A stretch of DNA of 64,000 bases, taken from positions 124,001 to 188,000 of the forward strand of contig CM041196.1 of NCBI GenBank assembly GCA_023078555.1, read 5' to 3'. The notes below the pieces were generated by a model. It had not been told where the DNA came from. It searched no databases and worked only from the letters and a program-made list of their open reading frames with translations. Below are positions 1,449-50,593 of the stretch, piece after piece. The position numbers were made by a program, and so were the translations under genes. The stretch is from Ulva prolifera. Taxonomy: Eukaryota; Chlorophyta; Ulvophyceae; Ulvales; Ulvaceae. Each line of letters starts with the position of its first letter. Within the stretch, counting starts at the first letter, position 1.

Positions 1449-1733
1449 TGTTGTGGGATATCCATATCAAGAATCCAAGTATAAAGATAACATAATCAAG
1501 TGAAGAGGCGACTAACAAAGGACTCGTTGCTTCAGGTGCTTCAGTGGTAGAGCATGTGGGTTGTGCTCATGACGTCACCGGTTCAATTCTTACTTTCGTT
1601 TTTGCCGCGCGTTTTTACGCCATGGCAAGGTACGCTCCCCTCCACGTCGTCATGCACAGTCAGCATGCTTACCAGCTCAGGCACGCGCATTAACCCCTGT
1701 GCACACTCGATGAGACTAACACGCGTCTTGACA
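1449..1733 (+). mobile_element. Solo LTR of the TRIM family
   Basis: This 285-bp sequence matches the LTRs of the TRIM at 21943-22793. It starts TGTTGTGGGATATCC and ends GTCTTGACA (TG...CA termini). It is flanked by the direct 5-bp duplication CGCGG at 1444-1448 and 1734-1738, so its boundaries are exact and it is a genuine solo LTR left by LTR-LTR recombination. Inside it a tRNA-like stretch shows an A-box-like segment around 1535-1556 (TTCAGTGGTAGAGCATG) and a B box GGTTCAATTC at 1580-1589, about 40 bp apart as in a tRNA gene. T-runs follow shortly after the B box. Confidence 0.9.
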
Positions 1734-8235: not shown

Positions 8236-8880
8236 CCTTGGTCATACGCACGAGTCCTCCGAACCGTCGTGCTCTCGTCCTTGAGTGCGTCCACCGGCGT
8301 CATTATATAATTCTACTGCTCCAGCATCAACAGATCTCAGCAGACTTCAGGCAATGCGCGTACTCTGCAAAATTGACAGTGTCTTCTCCAATGAGCCCAG
8401 CTGGGGGGTGGCGCCTTGATCTCTAAGCTGCCCTCCAACTTCCGTGAGGGAGTACAGGATAACCTGTGACAATCATGCTTCTGGAGAAACGTTAGTCACA
8501 GGCACATATCCTGTTTGGCGTAGGCACCTACGCAGGTGCTCAATGAGCACTGCTCATGCTAATGTTCGTATGCAGATCATCCGATGCCACCTCTCTGGAC
8601 CATTTGGTGACAAACGAGCAACTTCCCAAGTGGCCGTCGTAAGACGATGAAACCTAGCCGAGTTGTGACAGCAATAACCCCCTCGTATTGGGTTGCGGCA
8701 GCAATGAATGAAAATGTTGACTCAACCAGCATGGTGGTAATTGAACCATAAAGTTCAATAGTCTTTCTGACGAAGGTGTAAGCACATGTTTCCATCAACC
8801 TTGTACACTCTTGTGTGGTGGTGATTATACGTTGGCATACTGCACGTGTTAATGGTTCCAACCTTGTTCCAGTGACTGAG

Positions 8881-9688
8881 TGCACACATCAACCGATTCC
8901 AAACTCCTCAACTACACCTACAGCCTGGGTACTGGGCAGAGTTTGAGCTGGATCAGAGCAAGTCCAGGTACCAAACTGCCAGGCGGTGTGTCTGCAGCGT
9001 TGAATTCCGGTGTGCAGCACCGACACACGAGAGCAGCCCCAGCAGATGTGATGCTGCACACATCAACCGATTCTAAACTCCTCAACTACACCTACAGCCT
9101 GGGTACTGGGCAGATTCTGAGCTGGATCAGAGCAAGTCCAGGTACCAAACTGCCAGGTGGTGTGTCTGCAGCGTTGAATTCCGGTGTGCAGCACCGACAC
9201 ACGAGAGCAGCCCCAGCAGATGTGATGCTGCACACATCAACCGATTCTAAACTCCTCAACTACACCTACAGCCTGGGTACTGGGCAGAATTTGAGCTGGA
9301 TCAGAGCAAGTCCAGGTACCAAACTGCCAGGCGGTGTGTCTGCAGCGTTGAATTCCGGTGTGCAGCACCGACACACGAGAGCAGCCCCAGCAGATGTGAT
9401 GCTGCACACATCAACCGATTCTAAACTCCTCAACTACACCTACAGCCTGGGTACTGGGCAGATTCTGAGCTGGATCAGAGCAAGTCCAGGTACCAAACTG
9501 CCAGGCGGTGTGTCTGCAGCGTTGAATTCCGGTGTGCAGCACCGACACACGAGAGCAGCCCCAGCAGATGTGATGCTGCACACATCAACCGATTCTAAAC
9601 TCCTCAACTACACCTACAGCCTGGGTACTGGGCAGATTCTGAGCTGGATCAGAGCAAGTCCAGGTACCAAATTGCCAGGCGGTGTGTC
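8881..9688 (+). repeat. 174-bp tandem array, 4.6 copies
   Basis: Copies start at 8881, 9055, 9229, 9403 and 9577, exactly 174 bp apart, and differ by only a few substitutions; the last is cut off at 9688. Because 174 is a multiple of three, the array stays open as a 276-codon frame (8880-9710), but each 58-residue unit shows no domain. The array lies between two divergent CACTA genes, so a promoter or enhancer array is more likely than a protein. Confidence 0.95.
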
Positions 9689-9915
9689 CATAATTTGCAT
9701 TTCGGCATAATGCATGGATGCTGACGCTTGGACAGCTAATGTAAACCGAAGCGACTGTCGAGGGAGGTGCAGGTGCCAGCTATAACCGGCCGTTGCGCGA
9801 TAGCCAGGAAACACACCACCACTCACAGCTACGAAGTACAACACTTGTGTCCCAGTACTAGAAGGCGACTACATAATTGTCCGTCGCGCCGACTGCCACC
9901 TACTGCTCCGATAAA

Positions 9916-15657: not shown

Positions 15658-17244
15658 CCACTGTATTCCTAGCCAAGGTTCACGGCTCGATGCATTTGCA
15701 GACATCAGCTCTGGCAGCTTGTGTCTGGACTACATAATGGTAGGCTGCAGCCCTCCCGGGAGAGCAGACATCAAAATTTTTTGGTGGCCCACAAACCGCC
15801 CATTCTTATACCTATTCGATGTGTGATGCATCTGTGCTTGAGTCCCGGGTCGTGCAGCAAGAGGGCTGCTCGTGAGAGACTGCCACAGTTGTGGATTGTG
15901 CCAGCATTTTGCCAAACACGCACACTCGTGCAACAGTGCAATCCTGACAGGACTCTCAAGCTATCATATTGACTCTTTCACCACTCGACTGACAAACATA
16001 TCCACTGCATTCTCAGCCAAGGTTCACGGCTCGATGCATTTGCAGACATCAGCTCTGGCAGCTTGTGTCTGGACTACATAATGGTAGGCTGCAGCCTTCC
16101 CGGGAGAGCAGACATCAAAATTTTTTGGTGGCCCACAAACCGCCCATTCTTATACCTATTCGATGTGTGATGCATCTGTGCTTGAGTCCCGGGTCGTGCA
16201 GCAAGAGGGCTGCTCGTGAGAGACTGCCACAGTTGTGGATTGTGCCAGCATTTTGCCAAACACGCACACTCGTGCAACAGTGCAATCCTGACAGGACTCT
16301 CAAGCTATCATATTGACTCTTTCACCACTCGACTGACAAACATATCCACTGCATTCTCAGCCAAGGTTCACGGCTCGATGCATTTGCAGACATCAGCTCT
16401 GGCAGCTTGTGTCTGGACTAAATAATGGGAGGCTGCAGCCCTCCCGGGAGAGCAGACATCAAAATTTTTTGGTGGCCCACAAACCGCCCATTCTTTTACC
16501 TATTCGATATGTGATGCATCTGTGCTTGAGTCCCGGGTCGTGCAGCAAGAGGGCTGCTCGTGAGAGACTGCTACAGTTGTGGATTGTGCCAGCATTTTGC
16601 CAAACACGCACACTCGTGCAACAGTGCAATCCTGACAGGACTCTCAAGCTATCATATTGACTCTTTCACCACTCGACTGACAAACATATCCACTGCATTC
16701 TCAGCCAAGGTTCACGGCTCGATGCATTTGCAGACATCAGCTCTGGCAGCTTGTGTCTGGACTAAATAATGGGAGGCTGCAGCCCTCCCGGGAGAGCAGA
16801 CATCAAAATTTTTTGGTGGCCCACAAACCGCCCATTCTTTTACCTATTCGATATGTGATGCATCTGTGATTGAGTCCCGGGTCGTGCAGCAAGAGGGCTG
16901 CTCGGGAGTGACTGCTACAGTTGTGGATTGTGCCAGCATTTTGCCAAACACGCACACTCGTGCAACAGTGCAATCCTGACAGGACTCTCAAGGTATCATA
17001 TTAATTCTTTCAAACCTCTACTGACAAACACAGCCACTGTATTCCTAGCCAAGGTTCACGGATCGATGCATTTGCAGACATCAGCTCTGGCAGCTTGTGT
17101 CTGGACTACATAATGGTAGGCTGCAGCCTTCCCGGGAGAGCAGACATGATTTTTTTTTTGGCGGCCCACAAACAGCCCATTTATGTACACATTCGATGTG
17201 TGATGCATCTGTGCTTGAGTCCCGGGTCGTGCAGCAAGAGGGCT
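15658..17244 (+). repeat. 344-bp tandem array, about 4.6 copies
   Basis: The marker AGCCAAGGTTCACGG recurs at 15671, 16015, 16359, 16703 and 17047, a strict 344-bp period. Inner copies are nearly identical, while the outermost units share variants (TGTATTCCTAGCC) not found inside, the pattern expected when arrays homogenise from the middle. Each unit has an 83-codon frame on the plus strand, but no domain and probably no protein. Confidence 0.95.
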
Positions 17245-17751
17245 GTCTTGGAGCAGCACGTACAGAAGCACCATGCTATCCACAGAATGTCCTTTATACA
17301 ACCGGGATTAAGCACACTTACCTGTGGATTTTCGCCCGTGCCCTGGTGGCCCCCGTTTTGAATGCCCCCCTGCAGTGTACTTCGTCTAACCGGTCAGGCC
17401 CGCACCACAACACGAATGGCAGCCGCGTGAGCCCACCGAGTTTTGCAACGACACGCACACTGGGTGTATGGCGGTGACACCAGGCGCCTGGGCACGAATA
17501 CGGTCCGTAGAGGAAGCCCACGAAGCACAGCAGCAAGAAGCTGGAGACAATAAGACAGCTGCAACACAGGGACAACAACGAGGTGCCACACGCACTCGGC
17601 AATATTAATACTGGATTGCGTCAGCTTTATAGATGAAAGACGTCGAATCTCGCGCGCACTTCTACCTTGAGCGTGGCGACCACCGCGAGTTGCACTGTGC
17701 TGCTAGACACTTTCTCGAAGTGCTCGAGGAGCGCGATGGGAAACTGAAAAT
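17245..17751. other. Spacer between two satellite arrays
   Basis: About 500 bp of unique sequence. Overlapping minus-strand frames at 17318-17602 show no motif. I see nothing supportable. Confidence 0.4.
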
Positions 17752-20358: not shown

Positions 20359-21942
20359 GATCAGCATATGCAATGACCCCAAGTACAATGCAGCATTGCG
20401 CGCGTTACTAATGTCACTAACTATGAATGCCATGGAGCCCGTATTGCAAATTGTTTATGGTCTTGTGGAATCGTCGGTCACCTTAGCCGGTATGTCACAA
20501 AATTGTGGAGGTAAGCGAGTGTGTTCCGCTACAGATCCTACCACGAGAACGCATTCTGTGTCTTTGCGCAATGGTGTTCTACACAATCGGCAAGAATTGC
20601 TTTCACTCTTCACCATTCATTGTCATACCGATGTGAACAGTGTAGCTACTGCAATTGAGGGCGCTGTACATGTTCTCCGACTCCGGTATAATTTTCTGGC
20701 ATGTTGTCACACTCATTGCATTATTACAGACGTCCAACACATATTCTTTTTACCAGTGATCTAGATACAATCACATGAATTTGCAAGCAGACACCGACTG
20801 ACTATGGGAACATAACTCTATCCTATAAGAGTGGTATTGGCACCCGGCATGCCACTGGCAGGGAAACTCTTCACCTGCACAGGCATTGCGATTTGTCGTG
20901 TGGCGAGGCCAAGGGGACACACTGATGCAGCACACTGTAGAGATGGAAATCCATATGGCAAATTCACAGCATGATCCACATGGCCCTCAGCTACAGGCTA
21001 TAGCTAGAGGTGTAATGTGGCCACTACAAAGGCGATGACTGCTGCAGGATGTAGCGGCTGCAAAATGTAGCTGCTACAGGCAATAGAGGGCGATACCTCT
21101 ACCGAGCTCCTCGAGGATCGCAGCCAACGTCAGAATAACCCACTTGATACTGAGAGGTGAATCACCACAAGCACGTGCAATGGATTTACTGCCAGCGTCT
21201 CTTTCGCTACTAGCTACGTCGGTCTGCTGTGCGCAAATTCAGAAGGACAAGCGCAGGCTTTTCACAACGCCATACATTTTCAAGCATATGGATTTTACTG
21301 AAGGTACCAAAGCTGAGCTTGCGTTATAACTGTGTTCATACTCCAGCCGTGGGACTCGACGAGCTCAACACAGAGCTCCAGCACTGAAACGGTCCAAGCT
21401 AGAGGAGTACAAAACCCCTGCGCTGCTGCGCTTCACCCGAAAATACATCGCAAAGAGCAATGGACATGTCGAGAGCTATCGTGTACATTACTCACGGCGT
21501 GTGCACGTGCTGAAGATGCGCACAACAGTCGTGGCGTGGGGCACAAAATGTGTTGGAGCTGTGCATCCGGCATGTACACGCCGAAGGAGTGTGGATGCGC
21601 GTTCAATTGCCACTCGACCGGTGGTGGCTGAGGAGGCACGGTGTGCACGACGAGGACATGCTGCCGGCAGATGATGTGCTGTTCGTCGGAGCGTCCAAGC
21701 GCGGTCGCGGCGTGCACATTCCGTGCATTGAGGTGCGCTGCAGGTGTACACCGCGAGAACACTTCGGTGACACATCCCGCATACATTTCACTAACACATT
21801 CCAGCCAGCCATGGAATGTGCCTGCAATGTGCGTGTAATGTCCCCGAATGCGGCAGCGGGGCAAACGTGTGTCCGGCATGTACACTGCCGCATGCCTACC
21901 ATTCTTGTAGTGATAGGTCAAGAGTGGCACTTGGTCACCACC
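20359..21942. other. CACTA interior right of third gene
   Basis: A frame at 20294-20764 (+) overlaps the end of the previous gene and has no recognisable domain. Around 21001-21090 there are short direct and inverted copies of TGTAGC/GCTACA. The 21433-22011 frame on the minus strand runs into the nested LTR and is not credible as a gene. Confidence 0.35.
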
Positions 21943-22231
21943 TGTCAAGACGCGTGTTAGTCTCATCGAGTGTGCACAGGGGTTAATGCGCGTGCCTGAG
22001 CTGGTAAGCATGCTGACTGTGCATGACGACGTGGAGGGGAGCGTACCTTGCCATCGCGTAAAGTCGCGCGGCAGAAATGAAAGTAAGAATTGAACCGGTG
22101 ACCTCTAGAGTACACACGACATGCTCTAACCACTGGGGCTCACCTGAAGCAACGAGTCCTTTGTTAGATGACTCCTCCCTTGATTATGTCATCTATATTC
22201 TTGGATCCCCAGATACGGATATCCCACAACA
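21943..22231 (-). repeat. TRIM 3' LTR
   Basis: 289 bp, same sequence as the partner LTR. On the minus strand the B box GGTTCAATTC lies at 22096-22087 and the A-box-like CAGTGGTTAGAGCA upstream at about 22144-22122. Confidence 0.92.
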
Positions 22232-22243
22232 CTTCCCCCCTTA
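22232..22243 (-). promoter_or_regulatory. TRIM polypurine tract
   Basis: On the minus strand AAGGGGGGAAG directly abuts the TGTTG start of the 3' LTR. This is the position and composition of a plus-strand primer. Confidence 0.85.
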
Positions 22244-22491
22244 ACGAGGATCGAGCGCAGGGAGATCCAGATCTGATAACTGTGGGATATCTTCGATACT
22301 CCTGATGGAATGTTGGAACCTTCTCTTCGCGTCCCGAGTCCACGGGGGCCCAACCCGCTGTAACCGAACTCATATAACTGGGACTCCCTTAAGCTCGAGA
22401 GCTATGTTGACTGGGATGCGATCGCTCGGGAGGAGCTCACACAGCGGAAGGTGTAAGGAAGATGGAAGCTGTAAGGCAGATTACGAAGTCT

Positions 22492-22504
22492 GCTCACCGA
22501 TACC
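22492..22504 (-). promoter_or_regulatory. TRIM primer-binding site
   Basis: On the minus strand GGTATCGGTGAGC follows the 5' LTR without a gap. Its first 11 bases also occur just after the copia 5' LTR in this window. A small hairpin (GCAGA...TCTGC) follows. Confidence 0.75.
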
Positions 22505-22793
22505 TGTCAAGACGCGTGTTAGTCTCATCGAGTGTGCACAGGGGTTAATGCGCGTGCCTGAGCTGGTAAGCATGCTGACTGTGCATGACGACGTGGAGGG
22601 GAGCGTACCTTGCCATCGCGTAAAGTCGCGCGGCAGAAATGAAAGTAAGAATTGAACCGGTGACCTCTAGAGTACACACGACATGCTCTAACCACTGGGG
22701 CTCACCTGAAGCAACGAGTCCTTTGTTAGATGACTCCTCCCTTGATTATGTCATCTATATTCTTGGATCCCCAGATACGGATATCCCACAACA
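22505..22793 (-). repeat. TRIM 5' LTR
   Basis: 289 bp; on the minus strand the B box is at 22658-22649 and the A-box-like segment at about 22706-22684. The outer boundary is fixed by the CCACC duplication. Confidence 0.92.
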
Positions 22794-22798
22794 CCACC

Positions 22799-23334
22799 CG
22801 CTCAGCGATCGTAGCATCACTCTCGGTAGTCTCAGCCACCTGCACTCGAGAGCTTACGAGCATCAGTACACGCTGAATCTGGGCAATAGCACGGCATTGA
22901 AGGATGGGAATGTCCGGATGGTGTCAACGACGCACACTATCTTGATAACTACTTCCGATGAGACCGGCAGACTCTCGGGCGTCGAATGGTGACCTGAAGA
23001 CACTGTCAAACGAGTAGCGCACTCTCGGATGTCATGCGTGCTTTCGGCCCGCTCGCAATATGCCCTTCATGTACACGACAGATTTGCAAACAGTAATGAT
23101 TGCTTCGTTCCCGTACAGGGGACCTGCGTGTTTACAAGCTGGCTTAGCAAGCTGGTCCGCTGTGTACTTCTCCTGGCGTTATCTCTCACCAAACGTCGAG
23201 GTTGCGCCATGCACTTACCAAATATGCTCCTGGGATCACACAACGTCTTGTGTTGCCAATGCATTGTGCGTCTGCGTCCATTCTGCTGGTTGTCTAAGGT
23301 ACCCCTGCAACAATCCATCAATGTGCCCCTTCTA
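22799..23334. other. CACTA interior, right side
   Basis: Unique sequence between the TRIM and the right subterminal region. No gene is supported. Confidence 0.4.
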
Positions 23335-24788: not shown

Positions 24789-26555
24789 TCAATGACCATA
24801 GAATTCACTGTTGGATTGCATGCGCTTTAGAACCCAATTAGACTGGTGAAAAGACAAGTGTGCTAGAAAAGCAGGTTCCAGCAAGTATGCATCATGCAGG
24901 ATCTCAGCTCCCCCAGCATTGGGTCGCTGTAGGTCAATGGCCGCGACCGCCACATGATGCCACTGCTGTTGATCCTCAATAACTGAGGTCGGACTGCTCT
25001 GGTTAGACCAGACTACCCCCCTATTGACAGGCGCACCGACGAGAATTGGTTTGGTCTCTACTGCCATTTTAAACGCAGAGACAGGGTGACCATCCACATC
25101 TAGTTCCTGATATTTGACGTCATCTTCTACGTTGGTTGCCATATCGCCCAGACCAGGAACATACAACACATTTCTACGCGTGTCTAGGAACATCTGCTCA
25201 TGTCTAAGACCCATCGTGCTGAGCAGGTTGTACGGACATTCAGGAGCATAGTAAACACCAGGGATTTCCACATCCAGCGGATGCTTGTTCCCATGCTTGT
25301 CCACATAAGTACCCAGGTTCACATGAATGGTTCCCCTGCCCATGATAGAAAGCTGCCCTAGTCCCGCGAGATTGGCAACTTTCTGACACGGACCGTACTC
25401 AGTGAACATCTCACGATTTCCTACTATCTGCATATCCGACCCACTATCAACAATGATGTTCCACGGCAGAGACGCGTCCGGCTGTGGATACTTGTCAGGC
25501 ATTTCTATAGTGCAAACATCCTTGGCCGCAGCCTGTTTGCGTTGGGGGCAGTTCGCACGCAAATGTCCCTTCTTCTTTCAGAAGAAACAGGTCCTGGTCT
25601 CCTCGCGAGGAGCCTGGCCAGCTGCGAGAGCAGCGACCACAGGGCCATCACCACGGTGCTGCTTGCGCCAGCCATGGTCTGGTTTGCCCGCGGGCGCCCC
25701 AGACCTAGCCTGCAGCTGCCGCTGTTGTTTGAGCAAGTCAGCATGCTCAGTCAAACGTGATATGATCACATGAGGGGAGGAGTGTTGAACTTCGCCGCGC
25801 ACAGCGTTGAACTCCTCCCCCACCTCTAACAGTTTCAAACGAAGCCATCGCTGGCCCACATCGGCACCTAGTGCCTCCAGTTGAGTGTAAACACTCATCA
25901 CATCACCACAATATGTCGCAACATCTCTATTGTTTTGTGATAAAGAATTAAACCGACTCCACAGTCTGTGGATTTCGGCTTCGGTGCTAGGTCTGTACTT
26001 GGCAGTCAAGTAAGACCATGCTTCACACAGGTGCGACATGCGATAGACAGTCGTCCTATCCGCGTCAGGCAAAGACATTAGGACCTGTGTCCTCGCCCTA
26101 GCATGAACACGCTGTTCGTCCGCAGACGGTGCGTGCTGCAACAGATGATCTAACTCAAATTGGCCTAACCACAAAAAGACTTTCTGTTCGTACGCAACGA
26201 AACTTTCAGTCTTAAAATTCCATTCAGGGAGTTTTCCTTTAGTCAGATCAGGTTCGCTACGTCCCCGAGATGCACGCAGCGCCTCGGTTAACGTTTCGAG
26301 TGATATGAAAGACTCAGTGTGACCGGGATCGTTCACAACATGAGAGGAAACAGGCACATGTTGGCTGCTCTGCCCAGTATGGGAAGAGGGTCGTGGCCGG
26401 ACAATTCGTCCGTCCTGGAGCAACATACCCGCAGGCTGTTCTCTGTCAGGGAGCTGCTGGTCAGCGTCCCTGTCGACGAGAGGCTGCTGGTCAGCATCGT
26501 CACGCCTCTCCTCGCGAGGAGAGTTGGCGTTAGAGTTGGCGTTAGAGAGAGACAT
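24789..26555 (-). pseudogene. copia gag-protease, interrupted by an in-frame TGA
   Basis: The frame opens with ATG at 26555 and runs 325 codons to a TGA at 25580-25578, then continues in the same frame to 24789. The first part is a copia-type gag (UBN2-like: SFVAYEQKVFLWLGQF, LTAKYRPSTEAEIHRLW). The TGA falls exactly where the second cysteine of the CX2CX4HX4C zinc knuckle is expected, between CFF and KKKGHLRANC. After it come the aspartic protease DSG motif (NIIVDSGSDMQIV) and a gag-pre-integrase-like stretch. Truncation after this point means the element cannot encode replication functions. Confidence 0.85.
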
Positions 26556-44400: not shown

Positions 44401-47400
44401 GCAGGCTGCCCGAAGCATGCCAGACACTGTGAATTTCAGCAGAGCGGATCATTACGAATCAGGTGGGTGGAATCGCACTGTGATTCCGCTCTGCATTGAG
44501 ACGTTCCTCTCAGCCGAGTCCCCGCCACACAGGACGTACACCTTCTGCCGATCCCGACCGACCCGGATGTCTGGTGCGAGCCCCCGCTCCTCAAGGTCCA
44601 CCTCGGCCTCCCCCGTGGGAGCCGACCCAGAGCCCCCCGGCCACCCAAACTCCCCGATGTCGCCCATAGTCACGCCCTGCGATGTCTGTGCTGGACTGCC
44701 GTATGCACCGCTGTCGCGGCCATCTAGGCTGGGCAAGGCTGGAGCCGTCTCACCGAAGTCCATGGCCCCACCCCCCAGCTGCTCCCCAAAGTCCCCAAAG
44801 CCATCGAGGCCACCTTCTGCAGGTGCGCTCGCAGAGGCAGGCTCAAAACCCTCCTGAACGGCCCACGCCCTCACCTCCGGGTCGACCTCGTCTTCGCCCT
44901 CGCGCACGATGTCCTCCCCGTTCTCATCTGCCCATTCGTCAAAGCCGGATAAGTAGCTGTCAAACGCATCAAAGCGGAGGGGTCCGCCATCATCGGCAGT
45001 TCCCGCGCTGCCAGACTCATCGCCCCCGACCTCCCCATCGGAGCCCCCGTCAAGCAACCGCGCCTCTTCTACGGTGTTGGTCCACACGGCCAGCATGTCC
45101 CCCGGCATCTCTTCCCCCCGCGCAATTGTCTCGGGATCGCGCGCCACGGGCTCCTCCGGTGCAGGCAGAGCCGGCAGCTGCGCGCGTCGCAGCGCGCCGG
45201 CGACGAGGTGCCGCAGGATCGCCGCGTGGCTCCACCCTACAGCCGCCGCCTGCTGAAATAGGAAGCTGCCCTGCTCAAGGCCGCTCACAGGGTTGACCTC
45301 TGCGATGATGACAAGGCCGCCGTCAAATCTAACGAGCTCCCGGGGGTGTTTCGTGAGCGAGTCGAGGGGAGTTGTGATGGGCTCGAATGCGGCATCGGTG
45401 TCGCCCCGCGCTGCGGCGACCGCGTCGACCGGCGGGTCAACGACGCGGGTGCCACTGCGCTGCGCGTGCGCGCGCTGCTCTGTCTCGCGCGCATCTGCTT
45501 GCTCGACCTCAAATTGCGCCGCGTGCTCCAGCTGGTCGAGCGTGAAGTAGCGGTCCATGTCGCCGTCATACACGTACTCGTCAACGGGATCGTCCTCAAA
45601 TTCAGGGCCCATGCGTGCGACGTCGTCCTGCATTCACTCGATGCATCAGCCCTGTGCCAGACTCCAAGAAACCGATGAACATGACAGCGGCTTGATGGTG
45701 CAGATGTCACTGTGCAACCAAGAGTGAATTGATGCCACACAAGGTTGTCTGCAGCAGAATGCACAGTGGACGCCTCCATTACACCCAGTGAGGCAGCATC
45801 CTGATTGTGTGACATCAGTGGCATCAGCATGCACGTGCACATACGCATGCTGCCATAAACCCTCGTTGGGTGAGAAACGTAGATCTGCCCAAGTCACAGA
45901 GGCACAGCTGAGCAGATTGGTGCGAGGGCGCACATCGGTGACTTCAACGGCGCCATCGACCAAGAACTCGTCCTCGGCGAGGGGCCCATCGCCTGGAAGA
46001 GGCAGCTCTGGGGCTGTGGGGATGGGAGGGGGGTCTGTGAAGCGGGCAACGGAGCGGGCGAGCATGCTGCAGTGCTCCGCCTCGGCGTGGATGAGCAGCC
46101 AGCCATCAAAGCGGGCATAGTCCCGCAGGCCGAGGTCTAGGAACGCCCTCTCAGCGGAGCGACGGATAGCCTGCAGGCGCTCTGTGTGTCAGGTCACACA
46201 TACACCTACTCTGCTGCTACTGCAGACCTGCTCTGCAGATGTGGCCTTCTGCATTGCTGGTACGTGGCTCCCCATAGCCATCAGAACAAGCAGAGTGATT
46301 GCCTCACTTTGACGCTTGGGCAGGAACGGAGGGAGCACACAATTCCAGGAGTCACAACAGGCTTGGATGGTGCAAGGCACCAGTGCAGCGCAATGTGCGG
46401 AGAGATCAATGCAGGAGGCAAGCCCGATTAGGTGAGAAAGTTGATGAGCCATGCTTCTGCTAACCGATGTCATGCAGGGTAGAAGAAAAGGAACTCTGCA
46501 GAGGTCGTGCACACCTGGACCATCTTGGACTCCAGCTTGGGGGGAGTGTGGGTGCGGACTTCCTCGTTGGGCTGGTACTTGCGCCTGTACGAGAAGAAAG
46601 TCGAGTCTGGATCCATGTCATCATACAGGGGAACCTGCTCGATTGCCTGCCCGATCTCCTGCTCCATTTGCCCCATCTCTACCTCCCGTAAGTGGTCCTC
46701 GATGTCACTGTTGAGATTGACGATCTCCAGTGTCGTAGGTGGCAACGCCACAACGCAGCCGTCTGGGCTCTGGATGACTGTGACGGTGTACTCAATTGCT
46801 CCAAGCATCTTGGGCTCCACCACCACCTGCAGCACACACAACGGCATGGGCTGTGGAACAAAGGATGTTCTTGCAGGCGGATGCAGAGGTCTGAAGAGGA
46901 TGGCTGCTAATGACCTCTCTGTGACACACACAAACACCTCCAGTGTAACACTGAATGTATGTGAGTGAATTTCGTGCTGACAATGGTTGCTTGACAGGCC
47001 ACTGCTCTAGTCCTCAGCATTGCTGTCTGAGCTAGCTCAGCACAGACTATGTGACAGCAGTGACAAAGTATGCTCGTGCTGGTGTCGTGGCACCATGCCT
47101 CTGCAGCTATGGGCATACTCCAGGCCATTCAAATGCTGACCAATGCAGCCTGCCACTATGCACGCCTCACATGCTCTGCCAGTCCGGATGATTGCACTGA
47201 AGGCAATCGTGCAGGAAAAACGGCAAGCAGTGCTTCCATGTGCACAAGCACAGAGGCACCAGCAGGAAGATCACACCATGGGAGCTCCTCCGAGCAGCTG
47301 CTGCCTGGCAGCCTCCAGTGCATCTGAGAGGCCCTGTGAGAACATGACACCGATGGAAGAGCCGCCTTCGGCTGACTTGACGACCACGACGTTGTCCTCT

Positions 47401-50400
47401 ACGTCCATGTTGGTCTGCTCCACCCACCAATCGACCTTCTCACGGCTTTCCTCCTGCACAACAACCAAACATGAGCTAAGCGGACAACTCAGGCACTGTA
47501 CAATGCCATCAGTGTTGAATCTGCACAGGAGCAAAACAGCAGCGCAGTGCGAGGCAACAGCTGTTGCTCGTTCTTTGCAGCAGCTTTGAATAGGCACACT
47601 GTGTCAATCTGCCACCACTGCCCCTGATGCCAGGACAGGTATACGATGAGACTCACAGGCATGTGCACACAGGGACACCCTGCAGCAACCTTAATAACCT
47701 CGAGAACATTGCAAGGTCAGCACCAGGAGTGTGTAATGTATGAGCATGACACAGCAAGCCATGCACGATCTTCATGTGCTTGGGTTCAGCCCAATCATGG
47801 CTGCACTCACATGCAGCCCATGCTGGAAGGAGGAGACTCACCGTGAGCTTGCAGTCTTCCGCCTCAAGATCGACAAAGTCTGAGGCCAACAGGTTCATCT
47901 GTTCCAGAGCAGGGAAGCCTGCCTCCAGCAGGCGCTGCCGGGCGCTGACCTTGTTGAATGCCGTCGCCATCGCCTCGGGCTCGCTGCCGACATACTGCAC
48001 CCCCGCATCCTGCAGCGCCGCCGCCAGCCGGCCGTCCTCGCCAAAGGCGCCGTGAATAACAGGGAACGCGATGTCGGCGGTGTCGGCGATCTGCGCCGCC
48101 ATCTCCTGGGGCCCGCCGAGGTGCAGCCCGATGTGGTGCAGCTTGTGGGCAAAGTCCGAGGCGGTGTGGCTGTAGAGGGCTGCAGCGGGCACGACCCACG
48201 CCTGCAGCTGAGCGTCCACGAAGTAGGCGTCCACAGACACCCCGTACTTGTCAAACTCGTCATAGACGTCCTCAAAGCCCTCCTGCATGAGCAGCACTGA
48301 TGAGTCATAGGTACACCCAGAGACCAGGAGTGCGTGCCTTGGTGAGATGCTGTCATGTGCACATCAGGCAACACTGCTCGTGCCAGGCGAAAGCTGCCTG
48401 AAGGAAACAGTCTCAGCTTGTCGCTGCCAAACGCCCATGTTCACACAGGTGAAAGGCTGCATGATGATCGCACGGCGAGGATATCCACTGTGGTGCACGT
48501 CAATTGTCATGACAAGTTGCCATGACCGAGCAGCCAGGCACTTGGTCAAGGCTGGAGAGGCAAGGCATGATCAGCAGCGTGCATGGGCCTCACAGACGCT
48601 AATTCCTCCCGGCCATCGGCAGCGGCTGGTGGGCTGATGCAACAAGAGGAGCCACACCTGCATGAGTGCTATGCCCAGCTGCGCAGCCTGCTCTGGATGC
48701 GGCCGGGTCCGCAGCATGTCCAGCACCGTGCGTGCGGACTCGAGTGACACGGACGCCTCGGCAGAGGGGCCGCCGGTGATGACGGCGACGCGTATCCGCG
48801 GCGTAGGTGGCGTGAGCAGCATGTGTGTTGCACTGTGCAGCTCAAACTGGGGCATGTCCCCAGGCGCCATCACCTCCTGGTTCTCTACAGCAGGCCCCTC
48901 TGAGCCAGACGAGCGCTCCCGCACGAGGTGCTCCACGAGGCGGTCCTCCAGCTCTGACAGCGTGGCTTCAGGTGGAGCAGGCTCACCACGGCGTTCCAGC
49001 TCGTCTTCAAGCTGTGGCCGCGACAGCAACATCGCCTGCACGTGCACGCGACTGCTGTAAGGGCCTGCAGGAACTTCAGCGCAGTGCTGCTGATTGGCTG
49101 ACAATTGCATCTTGCAGGGTCCAGGTGGTGCGCGAGCGTTTGTAACAGACACCCCCAGGCGTGACAGCCGTGACCTGCAGTGTGAGGCACAACCGCAAAA
49201 TCACTGTCGGTACTGCGCTATTTACGTTTTTTTACAATGACATTGGAGGGCAGCCTTCCAAGCAGTAACAGTGATGTATGCAATACAGTCAGTCACACAT
49301 TCAGAGTCATCCAGATGCAAACGCTCACAGATACAATCGCCTGCCTCCACGTTAACGTGCGCAGGACTGTGTGGATGCACCCACAATGCAAGCACGGGTG
49401 GACAGTTCTGGACAGAGGTCAGCGGAGGTGGGGAAGCTGCTTGGGCGTGCAATTCAGCAAAGCAACCTAAAGTTCTTCGGTACATTCTCAGCGGACCTGC
49501 AGTTCTGCATCAGCGACACTAGGCATATGCGCTCTGCCGAGCGCAACTAAAGAGCAGTGCAGCATACCTCGTCCCGAGCTTGCTCGGTCAGCTGCTCGAT
49601 GTCTGTGTCCTCGCCTCCACCTCGCTCTGCCCTGGCCTCCACCAGTAGCATCAGCTGAAGCCTCTCCCGCAGAGTCGCAGCGTCTCCGTCCAACTTCACC
49701 CCCTGCGTCTGTAAAGCAGACGCGACCTCTTGATCAGACATGCGATCGATTGCTGCACGTATGCCAGCCACATCTTCAGGGCTGTCAGAGCGCTGTGCAG
49801 CAGGTGGTACTGCAGGGCCAATCTGACTACCGCCCGAGCCCTGTATCAACCCCTCTCTCTCCCGGAACTGCTGAAGCCGGAAAATCATTTCCGCTTTGCG
49901 ACCTGACGAAGGCAGCCGCAAGGCTTGCAGGGTGGAGCTCAGATCCATTGAAGTGTAGCCCGACGGATCAAAATCATTGCTGCTGATTCCCCTGTATGCT
50001 GCCTTATATGCAGCTCCTGCATCGGATGACTCAACAGATACATCGGATACGGGGTAGCTAGGCCTTCCAGAGACATCATCAATAATCGGAGTCGGTGATC
50101 CGCCGGGTGAAATCCCGGAGGAATAGGTTATGAGCTGCTGTAGGCGGTCATACAAGTCAATCTTGCTGCGGCCCAGAATTGGATCACCCCTCCTTCTCAA
50201 CTCTTGCAGAAGTTCATGCTTGGTGACTTCGCTGAATTCAGGCATGGGGCCGCCATCGGGGAAAAGTGTGGCCGTGTCAGCAGGAGAAGCGGCAGCAACC
50301 TGTTGATCTGCTGCATCGTTGTCTTGAAGGCGACGGACAAGCACTGCTTTACTTCCTGATAAGGCCAGGCCTCGCGATCTCAACTCTTCTTTAAGCTTGA

Positions 50401-50593
50401 TTATGGTGAGCTGCGTGTAGTCTCGTGCACGAGCAACAACGGCGGTCCGGGACGACTGCAACAGGCGAAATCGGACTCCGCCGAAGACAGACGGTTGACG
50501 CAGAAAACATTTTAAACTTCTTCTTCCTGCTGTCTTTGCGGGTGGCCGAAGTCGGCTACCGAGTGCTGCAGGCGCTACCCTTGCAGAAGCCAT
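41498..50593 (-). CDS. DDL: Tandem D-alanine-D-alanine ligase with N-terminal SAP-like repeats
   Basis: Twelve exons on the minus strand: 50593-49568, 49035-48658, 48282-47842, 47453-47277, 46826-46515, 46170-45898 (or 45934), 45627-44479, 44261-43779, 43580-43422, 43227-42954, 42685-42225, 41899-41498. Introns are phase 0 except one, and acceptors are TGCAG. The protein is about 1,840 residues. Residues 1-50 are Arg/Ser/Ala-rich like a plastid transit peptide. SAP-like helix pairs lie near 59-92, 122-155, 213-243, 285-318 and 347-381. Ligase domain 1 runs from about 423 (VAVITGGPSAEASVS) through HGAFGEDG to AEVNP (about 980). Domain 2 runs from about 1232 (VYVLCGGDSAERNVS) through IHGDLGEDG to ARIDAF and IEVNTIPGLT (about 1747). 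Plants and mosses have a plastid tandem ligase making D-Ala-D-Ala for plastid peptidoglycan; the role here is inferred from that. Confidence 0.9.

Follow-up and report, generated by a model that had tools for sequence, protein, structure and literature searches.

A probable Helenus-type TRIM with a tRNA-Thr-derived segment in its LTRs in the green alga Ulva prolifera

The 64-kb window (the whole stretch of Ulva prolifera DNA that was analysed) contains an intact miniature LTR retrotransposon (TRIM) of 851 bp at positions 21943-22793. This element is very probably a Helenus-type TRIM whose LTR segment originates from a tRNA-Thr and whose primer is the initiator tRNA-Met (iMet). What is new is the green-algal host of a tRNA-bearing TRIM, as the design itself is already known from the Helenus/TRIMp3 elements, which are described as TRIMs carrying tRNA-like sequence in their LTRs (Kojima, 2024; PMC10886601). 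The first-pass annotation had proposed a distinct design beside Cassandra, a proposal that the 2024 description of Helenus had already overtaken. Both the source tRNA and the primer are unusually clear for the family of the window TRIM. The features of the element, and of a second insertion of its family in the window, are as follows:

21943..22793, minus strand: whole TRIM (probable Helenus-type), 851 bp, sense on minus
22505..22793, minus strand: 5′ LTR (in sense), 289 bp, identical to its partner LTR
21943..22231, minus strand: 3′ LTR (in sense), 289 bp, identical to its partner LTR
21938..21942, no strand: target site duplication (TSD) CCACC, left
22794..22798, no strand: target site duplication CCACC, right
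22493..22504, minus strand: primer-binding site (PBS) GGTATCGGTGAG, complement of the host initiator tRNA-Met 3′ end (...CTCACCGATA + CCA)
22232..22242, minus strand: polypurine tract (PPT) AAGGGGGGAAG, ahead of the 3′ LTR
22637..22709, minus strand: tRNA-Thr(UGU)-like segment, 5′ LTR
22075..22147, minus strand: tRNA-Thr(UGU)-like segment, 3′ LTR
22684..22697 (5′ LTR) and 22122..22135 (3′ LTR), minus strand: A-box-like D-arm CAGTGGTTAGAGCA, 5/7 set positions in tRNA register
22649..22658 (5′ LTR) and 22087..22096 (3′ LTR), minus strand: B box GGTTCAATTC, 9/10 set positions
1449..1733, plus strand: solo LTR of the same family, TSD CGCGG (1444-1448 / 1734-1738)

The PPT AAGGGGGGAAG, read in sense, and the PBS place the sense strand on minus, and because CAGTGGTTAGAGCA and GGTTCAATTC lie on that strand, the A- and B-box-like strings are in sense as well. 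The LTRs start with TG and end with CA, and they enclose an internal part of 273 bp. In LTR sense coordinates, CAGTGGTTAGAGCA is at 97-110 and GGTTCAATTC at 136-145, which puts them 39 bp apart from start to start, close to the 40 bp first estimated, while a TATA-like ATATAGA (34-40) and a CAA (69-71) lie upstream of the tRNA-like segment. The longest ATG frames entirely within the element encode 116 amino acids in antisense and 69 in sense, and neither has a Pfam match above cut-off. The anatomy reported by the first-pass annotation (identical 289-bp LTRs, TG/CA ends, CCACC duplication, PBS and PPT) was recovered in full, and its statement that the element has no coding capacity agrees with the short frames (116 amino acids at most) and the absence of Pfam matches above cut-off.

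To name the tRNA, we compared the LTRs with a set of 51 different tRNAs, which ARAGORN predicted at 57 of 60 matched loci and at three iMet loci; this set is incomplete, as it comes from the best 63 scored among 1780 candidates and lacks some isotypes, Tyr for one. The LTR of the window TRIM reaches its top score, 41, with tRNA-Thr(UGU), a value equalled by two of 500 dinucleotide shuffles and by none of 620 window tiles. Across 45 LTRs of the family, the best tRNA is Thr(UGU) in 41, Asn in two, and Lys and Ala in one each. The LTR at L069, which belongs to a subfamily lacking one T in the D loop, scores 54 with tRNA-Thr(UGU), compared to 38 for the next isotype and 22 for a reversed-tRNA control, and none of 2000 shuffles reaches 54 (maximum 43). 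Without gaps, eight of the 45 LTRs match tRNA-Thr(UGU) at 44 of 72 positions, where the maximum in 826 window tiles is 36. By sequence, then, the LTR segment is a degenerate copy derived from the host tRNA-Thr(UGU). The claim that the LTRs are tRNA-derived is thereby supported and the tRNA named.

The solo LTR at 1449-1733 also scores 54 with tRNA-Thr(UGU), compared to 41 for the window TRIM, with 47 colinear tRNA positions and TTGT retained in the anticodon region. This copy is only 89.6% identical to the LTR of the window TRIM and is thus presumably older. Across the 45 LTRs, however, the tRNA score does not correlate with identity to the window LTR, so that older copies are not in general closer to the tRNA. 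A genome pattern built from this solo LTR and the tRNA matches 56 sites, compared to none for the control; the only mismatch-free sites are two tRNA-Thr(UGU) genes and the solo LTR itself, an outcome given by construction, and by pattern match a site at C6:6174749 looks intermediate. The segment was initially described as a relic and not a working tRNA, and this description stands: ARAGORN makes no tRNA call on the window TRIM or the family LTRs, Rfam has no tRNA match in the LTRs, including a scan of 21700-23050 up to an E value of 10, and the tRNA-like segment forms no cloverleaf fold and is of ordinary stability (z of 0.14 and -0.22).

The genome scanned for copies comprises 88.9 Mb in 44 contigs and contains at least 40 matches to the TRIM (the best 40 scored of 194 candidates). 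Allowing for one mismatch at most, the first 14 bases of the LTR are found at 273 sites, compared to four for the reversed control. The PBS region, with at most three mismatches, is found at 32 sites, 22 with GGTATCGGTGAG, nine with GGTATCGATGAG and one unrelated; these are counts of sites and not of elements, as two sites on C7 lie 562 bp apart in a tandem-like arrangement and the PBS site in L124 does not adjoin an LTR of this family. The 273 LTR-start sites set against 31 PBS sites suggest that the majority of LTRs in the family are solo. The PPT-LTR junction pattern, which also takes in a second TRIM family (family B, described below), has 164 sites compared to 12 for its control.

The 45 insertions examined are a non-random set, built on 55 full-length LTR matches among 66 BLAST pieces, with the 11 shorter pieces left out; 38 are from the first 40 fetched regions on C1-C3, two are in the window, and the remaining five are L106 (C6), L107 (C4), L122 (C4), L123 (C7) and L125 (C5). 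A perfect 5-bp TSD flanks 34 of the 45. Among the 11 others, six (L044, L106, L107, L122, L123, L125) have one full-length LTR per fetched stretch, with the internal part instead of a second flank adjoining the LTR, while five (L039, L047, L057, one of two in L060, and L065) have flanks matching at one to four of the five positions. Ten complete LTR pairs show no differences in six cases, one in two and two in two, and the family has therefore moved recently. Comparison of 17 full copies gives 18 informative sites, of which 17 clash with at least one other, a pattern that co-packaged RNAs and template switching would give. The occurrence of a PBS variant in both LTR subfamilies was considered as proof by homoplasy that the PBS is rewritten, and was rejected because recombination, given these conflicting sites, explains it equally well.

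The primer was identified from three initiator tRNA-Met loci, read from six sites with one mismatch. Their 3′ ends are ...CTCACCGATA at one locus (C10) and ...CTCATCGATA at two (C4 and C8). The 12-nt PBS of the TRIM is the perfect complement of CTCACCGATACC or CTCATCGATACC, version by version, and the sole position that differs between the PBS versions is the position that differs between the iMet versions. The acceptor stem of the host initiator tRNA-Met exists as ATCGATG and ATCGGTG (L108, L109, L110), and the two versions are mirrored in Copia as well as TRIM PBSs. Seven Copia 5′ ends, picked for long open frames among the best 150 of 676 candidates, all have TGGTATCGRTGA directly after CA, in the form TGGTATCGGTGA in four and TGGTATCGATGA in three, the LTR end being delimited by a repeat only in L130/L131. 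These Copia PBSs have a first T that is missing from the PBS of the TRIM, a difference that counts against a Copia partner.

The primer and the host Copias fit trans-mobilisation by a Copia, where the proteins of a Copia with this primer would package the TRIM RNA and copy it. The initiator tRNA-Met would prime minus-strand DNA and leave its own acceptor-stem version in the PBS, integration would create the 5-bp TSDs, and recombination between LTRs would yield the solo LTRs. At the Copia loci read, no LTR resembles that of the TRIM, and BLAST up to an E value of 1 returns only a 13-base chance match. An L112-type element was also considered as the partner, since the first 15 internal bases are in common, but it was rejected because only a 168-codon frame of unknown kind is seen after its PBS. 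Within the window, pieces of Copia gag and pol lie at 24789-26555 on the minus strand in two separate frames (Retrotran_gag_2 and Pol_BBD).

Family B has 278-bp LTRs and is known from three loci read, L114 (196-473), L111 (C2:3952900-3954500) and L128. It resembles the window TRIM in its TGTTGTG start, CA end, PBS GGTATCGGTGAG, similar PPT (AAGGGGGGAGG) and small size, but the LTR body is unrelated (no BLAST match up to an E value of 1) and is without the tRNA piece, its tRNA similarity score of 29 being not above background. Among the first 100 PPT-LTR junction sites in the list, 75 have the GGAGG form of family B. Because family B lives without a tRNA segment, the segment is unnecessary for the TRIM life style. 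In L111, family B copies form a tandem array with a period of 470, an arrangement already known for plant TRIMs (Gao et al., 2016; PMC4717578).

A primer switch within family B was suggested by L128, where a long stretch complementary to the anticodon half of iMet comes after the LTR. This reading was rejected once the left flank (L139) was seen to be an insertion into the half-iMet PBS of another element. L139/L128 (C3:10562360-10563900) is thus a family B TRIM within the PBS of a different element, with the TSD ATGGG. The invaded PBS is complementary to roughly 30 nt in the 5′ half of the initiator tRNA-Met, as in half-tRNA priming, and a PBS of the same kind occurs in L129. The half-tRNA complement ends at tRNA position 10, beside G9, a base that is often methylated in tRNAs.

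Other features of the window include a D-Ala-D-Ala ligase N-terminal domain (PF01820, 1.5e-10) at 47653-48363 on the minus strand, a peptidoglycan-type enzyme in a green alga, with a weaker match below cut-off at 44455-45633. A SAP-domain frame lies at 49547-50593. Tandem repeats of 174 bp occupy 8881-9688, inside an open frame at 8880-9710, and repeats of 344 bp occupy 15658-17245. The genome as a whole has 38 matches to chlorophyll a/b-binding proteins, spread over eight contigs (C1-C6, C8, C9). Among the best 120 of 2805 hits, most of which are unnamed, the named proteins closest to a 210-aa match of this type on C5, aligned over 99% of it, are from Acetabularia (89%), Tetraselmis (88%) and Ulva mutabilis (86%). 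The host is accordingly a green alga, most likely of the Chlorophyta. A fungal host, considered in view of the Helenus literature, was rejected on these grounds; searches for STE3 and hydrophobin gave no match either, but as their controls were equally silent this negative carries little weight.

Pol III transcription from the LTR, proposed in the first-pass annotation, may occur, at chances that we put a little below even. If the tRNA segment was captured, from a tRNA gene or a SINE, it could supply, or could once have supplied, Pol III with a start site within the 5′ LTR. With initiation upstream of LTR position 85, R would be present in both LTRs, provided that the polymerase reads on for 562 nt as far as the second LTR. 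Plant tRNA genes are preceded by TATA and CAA signals, and ATATAGA and CAA in the LTR would suit Pol III or Pol II alike. It is about equally probable that this is a Helenus-type TRIM with the tRNA segment as ballast, transcribed by Pol II from ATATAGA, with the captured relic drifting along. For Helenus itself, no conclusion on Pol III transcription is drawn without experiment (PMC10886601).

Several observations bear on these two readings. Most Helenus members have a box A with TRGCY and YGG and a box B with GGTTC (PMC10886601). In the window LTR, GGTTC and TGG are present and TRGCY is not intact. The degraded A box (5/7 in register) favours ballast; the nearly perfect B box counts against it. 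When set positions were counted, the general A- and B-box consensus forms served as reference. Variants common to at least eight of the 45 LTRs fall at five sites in the segment, one beside the D loop, one a D-loop indel and three in the anticodon arm; none of the five is within the B box, again counting against ballast. Overall conservation points the other way. Across the 45 LTRs the boxes have a divergence of 0.0512, compared to a mean of 0.0411 over placements, and at 169 of 240 placements the value is no higher. Since the divergence of the boxes equals or exceeds that of the remaining LTR, their conservation was ruled out as proof of function, and their lack of extra conservation is consistent with ballast, although the power of the test is low, given the unconstrained decay of solo LTRs and the large contribution of a single D-loop indel. 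The published statement on box conservation in Helenus is across families (PMC10886601). The first-pass annotation held that copies without conserved boxes would count against its claim, and the outcome is divided, with both box cores intact in 26 of the 45 LTRs.

Family B, which matches the window TRIM in PBS core and resembles it in PPT yet has no tRNA segment, further favours ballast. Retention of the segment in recently moved copies (six of the ten complete pairs have no LTR differences) argues against ballast. Pol III read-through of an element needs the absence of T4, and nine of ten full copies, including the window TRIM, have no T4 run in sense. Terminator avoidance was nevertheless rejected, as this absence is near chance (129 of 2000 shuffles and 87 of 308 window tiles).

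That the tRNA resemblance is itself accidental, and the element an ordinary TRIM with two lucky short motifs, is very improbable. Taken by themselves, the two box motifs do not exceed chance: B-like sites (9/10 set positions) number ten over the two strands of the window, of which three belong to the family of the TRIM, and three of the seven outside it have an A-like partner fitting 6/7. The failure of Rfam and ARAGORN to detect a tRNA is also compatible with accident. Accident accounts poorly, however, for a similarity colinear with a tRNA, for one isotype being best in 41 of 45 LTRs, for an L069 score that no shuffle in 2000 reaches, or for a diverged copy in the window that outscores the TRIM on tRNA-Thr(UGU) by 54 to 41, and as a whole the resemblance exceeds chance. 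Most remote of all, to the point of being barely conceivable, is a LINE-mobilised SINE with LTR-like ends: a tRNA-derived promoter-like segment would suit it, but the structure refutes it, as identical LTRs, TG/CA ends, a PBS, a PPT, a 5-bp TSD and solo LTRs are all present and are not SINE features.

We return to the Helenus-type TRIM. The window TRIM has the structure that defines Helenus, set beside the named Helenus families by description only: it is under 1 kb, with tRNA-like A and B box regions in each LTR, a PBS, a PPT and a 5-bp TSD, the TSD length also given for the fungal and plant members (PMC10886601). Further likenesses are the degenerate tRNA, the solo LTRs and a primer in common with Copia, which is the likely partner of Helenus in fungi; Thr is among the tRNA types named for Helenus (PMC10886601). 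The fungal Helenus PBS is at the anticodon loop in most families and at the tRNA 3′ end in several, including iMet 3′ ends in some (PMC10886601); the PBS of the window TRIM is that of the iMet 3′ end. Plant TRIM PBSs match methionine tRNA, as stated in the PbTRIM paper (PMC3532108). The green-algal host is the second difference from the listed Helenus elements, whose hosts are Pucciniales, a few Agaricomycetes, six animal phyla and Selaginella; Table 1 of that paper lists no alga and Selaginella alone among green plants (PMC10886601).

Two other designs are comparable. Cassandra is likewise a TRIM with a piece of a Pol III small-RNA gene in its LTRs, but that piece is 5S rRNA sequence, where here it is tRNA-Thr; 5S rRNA is absent from the window TRIM, the Rfam scan of 21700-23050 up to an E value of 10 returning two weak microRNA matches outside the element. 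Cassandra makes Pol III transcripts (PMC10886601). Ajax shares the TRIMp3 design, its LTR likewise containing a small-RNA promoter, but is 5S-derived and reported from two nemerteans (PMC10886601). Among algae, TRIMs are described in Chlamydomonas, Volvox and Chondrus (Gao et al., 2016; PMC4717578). Those of Chlamydomonas and Volvox are fellow green-algal TRIMs, compared here by description only; a tRNA piece in the LTRs is unreported in the main text of that paper, where "tRNA" occurs zero times (PMC4717578). Among the open-licence PMC papers listed by our searches, none reports a tRNA-bearing TRIM in an alga, although such an absence does not prove that no report exists.

We tentatively propose, as a scenario somewhat less probable than not, that the TRIM-plus-tRNA design originated independently in green algae. 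A tRNA-Thr(UGU) gene, or a SINE derived from it, may have been captured in the LTR of a Copia-dependent TRIM, giving a Pol III start and driving repeated amplification, with the tRNA-like part drifting stepwise from a state like the solo LTR at 1449-1733, through the subfamily without the T, to the T subfamily of the window TRIM, all readable in one genome. This genome brings together the source tRNA, the primer tRNA, candidate Copia partners and a tRNA-free TRIM family. The two PBS versions, matching two versions of the initiator tRNA, are a natural marker of the priming tRNA in each copy, and because family B is a natural control, the Pol III origin of TRIMp3 elements is directly testable here.
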